From positions 121,096,209 through 121,160,208 of the forward strand of contig CM039462.1 of NCBI GenBank assembly GCA_022414725.1: a stretch of DNA of 64,000 nucleotides, read 5' to 3'. The notes under the pieces are model-generated. The model worked only from the letters and a program-made list of their open reading frames with translations. It was not told where the DNA came from and made no database searches. The stretch's first letter is position 1; every line of letters starts with the position of its first letter. Position numbers and translations under genes: made by a program. Source of the stretch: Microglena sp. YARC. Its lineage: Eukaryota > Chlorophyta > Chlorophyceae > Chlamydomonadales > Chlamydomonadaceae. Below, one piece after another: positions 744 to 63,580 of this stretch.

Positions 744-848
744 CTGCGCACCTAACGCTGTGAATTATTGCATTGGGGAATCAATGGTGGTGCGTGCTGT
801 GGCACCAATTCATGCCGGACAAGAAGTTACAATATCTTACCTGGGAAG
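744..848 (+). CDS. SET gene exon 1 (end of SET domain)
   Basis: The acceptor is ..tattgcag and the donor GTAGGT. The encoded stretch includes CAPNAVNYC and [11 protein letters not shown], matching the SET core where a tyrosine and an N.SC.PN element build the active site. It ends in phase 2 (AG|G), which exon 2 completes as Arg. Confidence 0.75.
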
Positions 849-63400: not shown

Positions 63401-63580
63401 CCTCCACCAATACCACACAAAAAATGCCACTCCACCACCACCAACCCCGCCAAAACTACCTCTGCCACTCACTCGGGGTTTGTGTGCTCTTTGTGAGGAT
63501 CCAAGGGGTTGCTCTGTGCAAAGTTACAATACTTCAGCATTCCCAGGTAGGTGCGGTCTGAAATGAGAGCGTGCGTCCAC
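48258..63580 (-). CDS. serine-carboxypeptidase-like (S10) protein, 3' part, eight exons
   Basis: Exons on the minus strand in coding order: 63580-63473, 60884-60736, 58449-58381, 56874-56654, 55675-55525, 52403-52264, 50748-50690, 48414-48258. The seven junctions from S1 to S8 are AG/GT and in phase. S10 hallmarks: [67 protein letters not shown] (catalytic Asp region), [20 protein letters not shown] and GHMAPY (catalytic His). Such enzymes are secretory or vacuolar peptidases or acyltransferases; the GESYA/Ser part and any signal peptide would be upstream, beyond the window. An Ala-rich insert in S4 ([13 protein letters not shown]) is unusual. The end of S8 lacks the usual P..AL.L...F, so its 3' limit is doubtful. 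Confidence 0.8.
48515..48535 (-). repeat. S8 5'-edge copy (decoy)
   Basis: Reads gttgggcag|gcacatggccc on the minus strand, like ctttcag|gcacatggcccc of S8, in the upstream intron. Confidence 0.7.
48647..48765 (-). mobile_element. SINE fragment
   Basis: taatgatagcgcctggtggg, gcgtggtattaagggagccc, as in the element at 4388-4587, with a diverged remainder. Confidence 0.75.
48885..49960. mobile_element. TIR element family N carrying exon-like sequence
   Basis: Ends TTAGGGTTGGG and CCCAACCCTAA are perfect inverses, flanked by TTAATA on both sides (48879-48884, 49961-49966). Subterminal catacgt/acgtatg motifs are packed at both ends. The interior holds an exon-like ORF (49340-49512), a family B right arm (49508-49615) and an internal partial duplication. 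It lies in the S7-S8 intron. No transposase is visible. Confidence 0.7.
49340..49512 (+). CDS. exon-like ORF inside the TIR element
   Basis: From candidate acceptor ggctctcttag it reads [56 protein letters not shown], stop TGA. Composition is protein-like. A degraded copy of its start (gaatggctcccttagattag) lies at 49665-49710. The gene of origin is not recognised. Confidence 0.4.
50178..50689 (-). repeat. S7 3'-edge array (exon tail + donor), 4 copies, with (AT)n
   Basis: Plus-strand cccagcagctcgaatggttg-type blocks at about 50190, 50285, 50405 and 50578 are copies of the S7 tail (minus: gcaactattcgagctgctgg|gtaag). They lie in the downstream intron. An (AT)n tract fills 50448-50524. Confidence 0.85.
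50690..50748 (-). CDS. carboxypeptidase exon S7
   Basis: Acceptor catgcag, donor GTAAGT. Reads [20 protein letters not shown] across the junction; in S10 enzymes VAGY...Y..LTF.TVRGAGH immediately precedes the catalytic His. Confidence 0.8.
51130..52240. repeat. 120-bp higher-order array of catatcagatcatatgaat units
   Basis: Short ~20-bp units (gaaaacacatcagatcat) are organised into a 120-bp block repeated seven to eight times almost exactly between S7 and S6. 50749-51129 holds shorter tgcatggcaaatatgaatat repeats and a duplicated ~65-bp acgtttgactgtgtagaacc block. Confidence 0.92.
52264..52403 (-). CDS. carboxypeptidase exon S6 (catalytic Asp)
   Basis: Acceptor aatgtag, donor GTAGGC; phase 1 in, 0 out. 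Reads [38 protein letters not shown] and [14 protein letters not shown] is the S10 catalytic Asp motif. Confidence 0.85.
52404..53230 (-). repeat. S6 5'-edge array, 6 copies
   Basis: Copies of the S6 head with its acceptor lie at about 52500-52582, 52672-52745, 52846-52925, 52957-53005, 53070-53112 and 53163-53205. The three nearest run through the coding bases for [17 protein letters not shown]. Two farther ones are short (agagtacgccggaatgcatc) and carry an insertion. All are in the upstream intron. Confidence 0.9.
53455..53649. mobile_element. Foldback element family J, copy 2
   Basis: Ends CAGGGTACTACT and AGTAGTACCCTG are exact inverses. Core gcgctttttagtgcaaaaag and acagggggttgaaaaactgc is inverted relative to copy 1 at 1142-1336. 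Confidence 0.8.
54075..54340 (-). repeat. Dispersed family D copy, inverted
   Basis: agcccccagggtcaccgtgt, gcatcgcttgcgacgcacct, aggacttgt match the reverse complement of 34497-34790. A ~40-nt C run follows at 54415-54456. The interval 53650-54074 has no recognised feature. Confidence 0.8.
54500..55524 (-). repeat. S5 3'-edge array (exon tail + donor), 7 copies
   Basis: Plus-strand blocks acttactcctcctggctagt, agaccgtcatagagaggca, then gttgtagcttagataggact recur at about 54506, 54640, 54772, 54918, 55068, 55219 and 55370, spaced 130-150 bp by CA/C-rich DNA. On the minus strand each encodes an S5-like tail ([15 protein letters not shown]) and donor. The real S5 donor is the copy at 55525. Confidence 0.92.
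55525..55675 (-). CDS. carboxypeptidase exon S5
   Basis: Acceptor catgtag, donor GTAAGT; 50 codons + 1. Reads [51 protein letters not shown]10 proteins have V..ALHAN...W..CS......Y.....SM.P.Y..L here. Confidence 0.85.
55720..56050 (-). repeat. S5 5'-edge array, about 4 degraded copies
   Basis: ttggttggcatgcatggtct (55730), atataacctcaacaagtaca (55812), ttggttagcatgcgtggctt (55893) and gttgcatgcatggcctctag (56002) are diverged copies of the S5 head and acceptor (plus strand ggttagcattcatagcctct). They lie in the upstream intron. Confidence 0.78.
56262..56630. repeat. (GACA)n microsatellite
   Basis: gaca/gacg tetranucleotides; the CLSV and RTDGQ frames are artefacts. The array ends close to the S4 donor. 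Confidence 0.95.
56654..56874 (-). CDS. carboxypeptidase exon S4
   Basis: Acceptor catccccag, donor GTATGT; phase 1 in, 0 out. Reads [20 protein letters not shown], a Gly/Ala/Ser stretch, then [17 protein letters not shown] and TRTYLRRPD. The YD.C..DY...YL.RPDV end is typical of S10; the Ala/Lys helix and acidic run before it look lineage-specific. Confidence 0.8.
56880..57200. repeat. ggttggggtt repeat
   Basis: Degenerate gttggg/ggttgaggtc units directly upstream (minus sense) of S4, with some ttaggg variants. Confidence 0.88.
57205..57430 (-). repeat. S4 5'-edge array, 2 copies
   Basis: ccttgcttctagcttggtgg with acaggtttgcatctgggg at 57208-57250, and a second at 57384-57428. They copy the S4 head and acceptor (plus strand ccttgcttccagcttggcgg), each separated by ~170 bp of G-rich DNA, in the upstream intron. 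Confidence 0.88.
57620..57818 (+). mobile_element. tRNA-derived SINE copy
   Basis: Head with A-box-like taggtctagtggta and B-box-like gggttcgattcccc; body ends caccacgccccaccaggcg then ttatcattactct, as in the copy at 4388-4587. No acceptor-stem pairing of a functional tRNA is evident. The gap 57431-57619 is G-rich repeat. Confidence 0.85.
57830..58345. repeat. actaatcaacacttac minisatellite
   Basis: A 16-bp unit repeated about 20 times, grading into ctaacactaa units. In minus sense it begins just after the S3 donor gtaagt, and gtaag/agtgt motifs recur in it. Confidence 0.92.
58381..58449 (-). CDS. carboxypeptidase exon S3
   Basis: Acceptor gacacag, donor GTAAGT, phase 1 in and out. Reads [20 protein letters not shown] and AKR. 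It fits in phase between S2 and S4; its content is not a hallmark motif, so support comes from phase and splice sites. Confidence 0.65.
58545..58640. repeat. attgtcaagcagtacaagac repeat
   Basis: Four units of caagcagtacaagaca in the S2-S3 intron. They resemble the intron side of the S3 acceptor (gtcaagcagtacacgca at 58457), so this is acceptor-proximal expansion. Confidence 0.7.
58690..59035. repeat. (TTGATC)n repeat
   Basis: ttgatc with gtttgagtttgatcttgatc higher-order units, followed by a short family A arm (59045-59100). Confidence 0.92.
59650..60100. repeat. family O tandem block, four ~119-bp copies
   Basis: Units with ctgagttagcaggttgcaag, caagataaggcagtgtaaca, gcaggtatgcgcccaagtgc. 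Single copies are dispersed at 25838-25920 and 36900-36965. From 59101 to 59649 I see no supported feature. Confidence 0.88.
60345..60490 (-). repeat. S2 3'-edge array, 2 copies
   Basis: Plus-strand ggctgttaccttctatttca with agcagcctgcccagctgtga (60345-60388) and a second at 60441-60483 copy the S2 tail and donor (plus: cttacctcctttctcaagca). Unit ~95 bp also carries gatgtcaaaatagtgccac from the intron. They are in the downstream intron. Confidence 0.88.
60502..60685. mobile_element. hAT-like MITE family I with perfect 8-bp target duplication
   Basis: Begins CACTTTGTTTTGTGACGTGT and ends GCGTCACACGGGAAAAGTG. Both flanks are TAAATTGG (60494-60501 and 60686-60693). Family copy, inverted, at 62540-62724. 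Confidence 0.9.
60736..60884 (-). CDS. carboxypeptidase exon S2
   Basis: Acceptor tacttaag, donor GTAAGT. Reads [50 protein letters not shown]. In S10 proteins a C......E.G.ID.Y.IYT..C segment follows the SD..Y motif. Confidence 0.82.
60893..62490. repeat. (GTGGGTAGGTGGAT)n minisatellite, 1.6 kb
   Basis: Units ggtggatgtgtgggta and ggtggatgggtgggta, with a (GGAT)n core at 61533-61640. It begins next to the S2 acceptor, whose cctatacctacttaag (minus) resembles the unit. Confidence 0.93.
62540..62724. mobile_element. MITE family I, inverted copy
   Basis: Begins CACTGTCTTTTGTTTGCG and ends GTTGAAAACACAGTG; the interior is the reverse complement of 60502-60685 (ctgactagtttagccagacc). Confidence 0.8.
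62776..62975. mobile_element. MITE family B copy
   Basis: Arms cagctacgagcaacagcttc and ggggactgcctagaagctgc, core caatcagcttgtgagaattg. Confidence 0.78.
62985..63472 (-). repeat. S1 3'-edge array (2 copies) in ccaccgcc repeat
   Basis: cactcactcggggttcttgc (63170) and cactcactcggggttcgtgt (63322) copy the S1 tail and donor (plus: actcactcggggtttgtgtg at 63468). The rest is ccaccaccaccgcc and a ~24-nt C run (63237-63260). Downstream intron of S1. Confidence 0.85.
63473..63580 (-). CDS. carboxypeptidase exon S1 (first in window)
   Basis: Acceptor cttgcag, donor GTGAGT. Reads [20 protein letters not shown], then [16 protein letters not shown] across the junction. S10 proteins have (W/S)H.LISD..Y..I...C.F here. 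Confidence 0.82.

Follow-up and report, generated by a model that had tools for sequence, protein, structure and literature searches.

Why should the introns of three unrelated genes be lined with rows of copies of the very exon edges that border them? The question is raised by a 64,000-nt stretch of the green alga Microglena sp. YARC (C1:121096209-121160208 in an assembly of 568 Mb and 2390 contigs; hereafter the window), eukaryotic DNA with GT-AG introns in which we mapped 14 exons: four of a SET-MYND gene (744-8279, plus strand), three of a CaMK-type kinase (24668-26983, plus strand) and seven of an S10 serine carboxypeptidase (63580-50690, minus strand). Their 28 ends, less the one at a stop codon, give 27 splice junctions. 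We consider it probable (about 0.78) that the copies are mirages, the name for minisatellite-like units that repeat an exon-intron boundary in tandem, and that the alga's non-coding DNA is very rich in local tandem duplications, which selection filters.

Each probe joined 60 nt of intron to as much as 80 nt of exon. Run against both strands of the whole window, the probes returned 61 junction-spanning matches at 13 of the 27 junctions (six exon heads with their acceptors and seven exon tails with their donors; Table 1). All 61 were direct, with heads upstream and tails downstream of their exon. A second pass on one strand, covering 2 kb on each side of a junction, recovered 64 copies at the same 13 junctions, every one on the expected side. 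A separate per-position pass gave eleven inverted matches (seven to the E3 tail, two to the E1 tail and two to the S5 tail), all within the intron part of the probes. The copies reach 15 to 87 nt into the exon and never as far as its opposite end, head copies are no more than about 850 nt from the exon that they precede, and the junction-spanning arrays have periods in Tandem Repeats Finder (TRF) of mostly 61-169 nt, some being longer. At two further junctions, the SET E1 tail and the head of the kinase exon beginning at 25476, copies consist of exon sequence and do not include the splice site. The kinase acceptors were set 1 nt off in the 61-match count and in the tile-share, array-abutment, end-pairing and per-position passes; they were exact for the first kinase exon in the 64-copy pass and for all three in the window tests of skew and near-junction excess. 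The per-position pass merges overlapping units and thus under-counts copies.

The pattern is not confined to the window. Exons of the S10 type matched the genome 26 times, once in the window, and the other 25 matches were taken with flanks of 1.5 kb. Two of these matches probably belong to the S10 gene of the window as additional exons, and that gene probably extends past the window (matches at C1:121166227-121169016). A second sample comprised 14 of 64 matches to CCT chaperonin genes, from two regions. With 45-nt probes from both ends and the middle of each of these 39 exon matches, heads were copied upstream in 16/25 S10 and 5/14 CCT cases and tails downstream in 19/25 and 4/14, giving 21/39 heads and 23/39 tails, and neither sample held a single head copied downstream or tail copied upstream. 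Middles had a copy in 7/25 and 3/14 cases, so that copies were found at 44 of 78 edges versus 10 of 39 middles (p = 0.0018); one S10 edge had an inverted match. Outside the window, the spacing of copies had quartiles of 49, 123 and 153 nt (165 spacings, 34 edges), with regular ladders at some loci (every 135-146 nt at L002, 135-141 nt at L015 and 108 nt at L016) and 39 matches at one edge of L003. The pattern and its side rule recur on contigs C1, C2, C3, C4 and C1615.

A preliminary description of the window had listed 17 instances, of which 15 are borne out (13 junction-spanning and two exon-only), with slightly different copy numbers. Its strict side rule stands (61/61 and 64/64 in the window, none on the wrong side at the 39 matches elsewhere with 45-nt probes), as does its view of the copies as tandem duplicates of junction-spanning segments, the side rule being what tandem duplication leaves. 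It had also rightly expected recurrence at about half of the exon edges (13/27 junctions in the window) and occurrence beyond the window, now seen in S10 and CCT genes.

Is the copying centred on junctions, or does it run through the introns as a whole? We divided the window into 40-nt tiles of normal complexity and scored direct copies within 1.5 kb. A copy was found for 45% of 83 junction-crossing tiles and 43% of 30 exon-edge tiles. Intron tiles had one in 60% of 132 cases up to 100 nt from an exon and in 51% of 1243 cases further off; inside exons the share was 33% for 67 tiles at a depth of 11-39 nt and 5% for 75 deeper ones, and for the 3657 other tiles it was 10%. TRF arrays covered 60% of the 20.5 kb of intron in the three genes, 14% of exon and 11% of the rest. 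Exon edges therefore behave like intron and not like exon interior. Around the 39 matches outside the window, the fraction of tiles copied somewhere within 400 nt was 0.585 at 1-50 nt, 0.609 at 50-100 nt, 0.627 at 100-150 nt and 0.51-0.57 onward to 1 kb; it was 0.55 at the match end and fell inward to 0.48, 0.34 and finally 0.18 (at least 60 nt inside). In 20 background stretches of 10 kb, placed at hand-chosen round coordinates on C1-C4, a local copy was found for 490 of 1183 tiles (41%) in direct orientation and for 49 in inverted orientation. The copying is thus mostly not centred on junctions. The preliminary description had held that it was, and had itself named as contrary evidence exon edges copied no more often than random intron or exon-interior segments; the window gives 43% for exon edges versus 60% and 51% for intron tiles, and the profile outside is nearly flat (0.51-0.63 over 1 kb).

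These observations suggest how mirages could form here. Short segments, spaced mostly about 35-50 or 80-160 nt, are duplicated in tandem and in direct orientation across introns and much other DNA; replication slippage, unequal exchange and errors in flap processing are candidate causes. Where the founder segment lies over a splice junction, exon edge and splice site are copied outward into the intron, and such outward copying fixes the side rule. Events within exons, or taking in a whole exon, would damage the mRNA and mostly be lost, which would leave exon interiors depleted and edges at about the intron rate. The exon-proximal site would then be the one spliced, as if exons rather than introns were defined, with up to 17 decoy sites tolerated and the decoys decaying or homogenising like ordinary minisatellites.

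The state of the copies can be set beside this scheme. In the second pass GT was kept in 36/40 and AG in 20/24 copies, a count limited to copies that extend 3 nt or more past the junction and therefore biased towards splice-site retention. The splice bases were kept at about the rate of neighbouring bases; decoys are therefore not visibly purged. Spanning copies differ from their original by 2-30%, with an identical exon part in a few near copies, and identity to the exon drops with distance both in the window (mean Spearman -0.51, permutation p = 0.0015, 8 families) and at other loci (mean Spearman -0.29, negative in 14/19 families). In the 97-nt E2-tail array, the sole array tested, inner neighbours are 94-100% alike and outer ones 0.79-0.84, and the copies are only 69-75% like the exon unit; this array shows concerted evolution within the cluster, the boundary unit excluded. 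Divergence was 0.106 in the intronic part of copies versus 0.162 in the exon part, the reverse of expectation, though short ends and homogenised arrays make this comparison uninformative. Mismatches by codon position (0.149, 0.120 and 0.219 at positions 1, 2 and 3), which one homogenised array dominates, are consistent with free copies and a constrained exon.

The introns also carry a strand skew. Past the donor they are rich in G and T; ahead of the acceptor they are rich in C and, in the window, also somewhat in A. This holds for all 11 window introns and for loci L001-L025, L046 and L047. In the window, the GC skew at the donor minus that at the acceptor was 0.83 versus 0.01 ± 0.11 for random pairs, with the same direction in 11/11 introns; at the 39 other matches it was +0.24 after and -0.29 before the exon, the former exceeding the latter at 33/39 (p = 1.4e-6). 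The flank skew fades over about 400 nt and is nearly gone by 430-630 nt; reverse-complementing one side of the exon gives the pattern of the other. Arrays make up much of the flank; outside them, two of the three window introns that could be judged keep the sign of the skew.

Several results do not sit easily with the mirage reading. Exon middles were not copy-free, and the CCT rate was lower than that of S10, perhaps because match ends there are not exon ends. With longer probes carrying 40 nt of flank, 5/277 matches pointed the wrong way, four of them without any exon-side probe base and one (L020) with 12. The lowest background stretch had 0% and the highest 82%, so part of the DNA is unaffected, and the use of exon-proximal sites is predicted from protein homology. 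Other results concern proximity to junctions. A TRF array lies within 40 nt of 15 of 22 intron ends, versus 4.3 when arrays are shuffled inside introns, and 11 of 13 long-unit families span a junction, versus 3.3 expected in array-collapsed introns (families and units hand-listed, with two in terminal introns and units under 75 nt excluded). A modest near-junction excess appears both outside the window (0.616 vs 0.527, p = 0.029, 65 edges) and within it (0.719 vs 0.517, p = 0.035, 22 edges). A purely uniform process leaves the abutment of arrays and the spanning of junctions unexplained unless founder introns were short, and with founder introns no longer than about 250 nt, as many spanning families arise even if nothing targets the junctions (P = 0.10 for 250 nt and 0.31 for 200 nt). 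The abutting arrays, the spanning families and the near-junction excess are therefore the reason to retain, as an improbable rival, duplication targeted to splice junctions, for instance by breaks from co-transcriptional splicing or R-loops, with introns growing from their ends. The tendency of the copies closest to the exon to be the most exon-like would also suit it. Such targeting fits poorly with duplication that is almost as dense hundreds of nt from junctions, with the duplicated background tiles and with a spanning count that short founders yield unaided.

That the arrays are kept for a function, as decoy splice sites or as oriented G/T-rich and C-rich arrays tuning splicing, is very unlikely: most copies do keep the splice dinucleotides and the flanks show a strong antisymmetric skew, but the splice bases are kept no clearly better than their neighbours and 14/27 junctions lack a spanning copy. 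Nor do the two ends of an intron pair significantly better with each other than with ends of different introns (p = 0.28 and 0.09), on which ground specific pairing of intron ends, as in some euglenid introns, was also rejected as a candidate in its own right. An assembly or sequencing artefact is hardly credible; the kinase exon with a frame broken twice, the 1000 N in the window (~20.5-21.5 kb) and a homogenised 97-nt array that is hard to size could be cited for it, yet the spanning copies are divergent (a few near copies with identical exon parts aside), periods vary between junctions and the same side rule appears on five contigs. We give just as little credence to the model of Rogers, in which new introns arise where an AGGT-bearing exon segment is duplicated in tandem, even though the accessible text of PMC3443670 accepts that introns can be gained in this way: under the model the head of the downstream exon should recur next to the upstream donor, and in the window heads lie upstream of their own exon, with no head copy downstream and no tail copy upstream of its own exon among those counted.

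A bolder form of the mirage reading, which we regard as possible and rather doubtful, would make boundary-spanning duplication a main and continuing genome-wide route of intron growth, with the exon border as a standing template, older copies pushed into the intron and the spliceosome picking the exon-proximal site among up to 17 (in the window) or dozens of decoys. If it were true, the genome would be a natural experiment on exon definition. In the accessible parts of the reports, mirages have so far been described from a few lancelet genes (PMC3087553, PMC3902484), and their presence in a green alga at 21/39 heads and 23/39 tails of two unrelated gene families suggests that they originate independently where non-coding DNA is prone to duplication. 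Should this rate hold genome-wide, very many junctions would have similar donors or acceptors in a row, and the spliceosome's choice between near-equal sites could be tested with RNA reads. Mirages would further explain simply how introns can reach kilobase lengths when transposons contribute little, and would show clearly how purifying selection stops a neutral process at exon borders.

The gene models behind these counts have the following basis. The seven joined S10 exons match Pfam PF00450 (Peptidase_S10, E 5e-28), and the kinase matches PF00069 (Pkinase, E 3e-41), its exons having been checked by tblastn with three kinase relatives. A SMYD3 match (E 2e-5) covers SET E1, E2 and the first part of E3; the remainder of E3 and all of E4 are drawn from open frame and splice sites, with no independent homology. 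The two frame breaks in the kinase exon at 24668-24929 reflect either residual sequencing indels or a decaying gene. An open reading frame (ORF) at 15988-16779 encodes a stretch close to the kinase N-terminus of P0021, and the kinase gene therefore probably starts near 16.6 kb. Among the best 120 of 750 matches, the best named relatives of the kinase come from Chlamydomonas eustigma, Tetrabaena socialis and Dunaliella salina; C. eustigma belongs to the class Chlorophyceae, and the host is thus a chlorophycean-like green alga. No S8 exon of the S10 gene was found by its HxVP motif, a protein search with a 126-aa S10 query returned no match, and six-frame Pfam scans of 9.1-20.35 kb and 33-47 kb, the parts of the window scanned, gave no family at E <= 0.01.

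Other features were noted along the window. Several arrays end 1-36 nt short of a junction with no exon copied (60897-62482, 58005-58371, 51133-52227 and 50750-50900), and a 151-nt array of 5.7 copies with 99% match lies outside the mapped genes at 31867-32726. By eye, two similar stretches at 4386-4600 and 57640-57830 (GAGTAATGATAACxCCTGGTGGGGCGTGGT...), with tRNA-like ends, are perhaps a dispersed element resembling a short interspersed nuclear element, and the E4 tail copy seems to be split at 8500-8570 by an insertion that starts like this same GGGGCGTGGTGTT element. A retroelement ORF at 29617-30435, by eye of the type lacking long terminal repeats (non-LTR), is 95% identical over 60% of its length to a metagenome protein and 71% to a EukProt relative; scans of viral and prokaryote contigs found no relatives of it.

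Table 1 Mapped exons and exon-edge copies in the window. Spanning matches are those of the two-strand search of the whole window.
Feature	Position	Strand	Spanning matches	Basis or remark
SET-MYND exon E1	744..848	+		Frame, SMYD3 match
Exon-only copy of SET E1 tail, donor not retained	about 1039..1096	+		Read by eye; local matches, none spanning
Two arrays (61/72-nt and 81/91-nt units) with acceptor + E2 head	1887..2658	+	5	TRF, both passes
SET exon E2	2666..2771	+		Frame, SMYD3 match
97-nt array, E2 tail + donor	2692..4298	+	17	17 copies including outliers to about 4.7 kb; inner copies homogenised
79-nt array, acceptor + E3 head	5978..6390	+	4	TRF, both passes
SET exon E3	6370..6663	+		Open frame, splice sites; SMYD3 match for first part
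E3 tail + donor	6604..7580	+	7	7 copies, spacing about 107-176 nt, with G-runs
SET exon E4	8002..8279	+		Open frame, splice sites
E4 tail + donor	8568..8653	+	1	Single copy; first pass
Copies of HRDLKLEN exon head + acceptor region	24025..24667	+	4	4 in both passes, 5 by eye
Kinase exon (HRDLKLEN)	24668..24929	+		Reading frame broken twice in assembly, relative to kinase relatives
Exon-only copy of 25476-exon head (kinase)	25187..25240	+		tblastn comparison with relatives
Kinase exon (DDDNDAVLF..)	25476..25679	+		tblastn with relatives
Kinase last exon	26847..26983	+		tblastn with relatives
S10 exon S1	63473..63580	-		Peptidase_S10 match
S1 tail + donor	63117..63346	-	2	2 copies; both passes
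S10 exon S2	60736..60884	-		Peptidase_S10 match
S2 tail + donor	60305..60482	-	2	2 copies; both passes
S10 exon S3	58381..58449	-		No junction-spanning copy; 16/26-nt array begins 9 nt past donor
Acceptor + S4 head	57209..57438	-	2	2 copies; both passes
S10 exon S4	56654..56874	-		Peptidase_S10 match
Acceptor + S5 head	55712..55943	-	2	Copies: 2 first pass, 1 second, 3 per-position pass
S10 exon S5	55525..55675	-		Peptidase_S10 match
S5 tail + donor	54444..55455	-	7	7 copies, spacing about 125-155 nt; TRF, both passes
169/193-nt array, acceptor + S6 head	52329..53240	-	4	4 spanning matches first pass, 6 copies second
S10 exon S6	52264..52403	-		Peptidase_S10 match
S10 exon S7	50690..50748	-		Peptidase_S10 match
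S7 tail + donor	50182..50621	-	4	4 copies; both passes

How do these arrays compare with what is already on record? The preliminary description knew of no named phenomenon, and here it must be corrected: the arrays match lancelet mirages, and repeats near junctions are on record in two green algae. Introns are where tandem repeats reach their highest density in Chlamydomonas reinhardtii and Volvox carteri, and the repeats, with GT/AC motifs, are significantly commoner close to intron-exon junctions; that study counts repeats, and its accessible text does not mention exon-edge copies (PMC3887541). Intron gain by tandem duplication of a segment with splice-site sequence, as in the model of Rogers, is described as established in the accessible text of PMC3443670; it creates an intron inside an exon, whereas in the alga introns already present acquire duplicates of their borders, on the side opposite to the prediction. 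Among the literature matches listed, from a search that mostly left out subscription papers, no report places boundary-spanning arrays beyond lancelets, and as far as searched the green-algal lineage and the pervasiveness of mirages are new here.

The closest counterpart is thus the lancelet. According to the accessible text of two reports (PMC3087553, PMC3902484), its mirages are tandem duplications of minisatellite type that cross 5' or 3' intron-exon boundaries in Adh3, the globins BflGb6 and BflGb9, TnC and PGBD5, with units of 10-160 bp, AG or GT in many copies and concerted evolution within clusters from which the boundary unit is excluded; RT-PCR (reverse-transcription PCR) suggested regular splicing. 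The alga shares the direct tandem units over the boundary, at both 5' and 3' boundaries, the minisatellite-like unit length (mostly 61-169 nt, with a median spacing of 123 nt elsewhere in the genome) and the retention of AG or GT in many but not all copies. The host, a chlorophycean-like green alga and not a cephalochordate, differs as well, which we take to reflect the range of reports and not to be defining. Unlike in the lancelet, about half of the exon edges in the genes examined are affected, on several contigs, and tandem duplication runs through most of the intron DNA examined.

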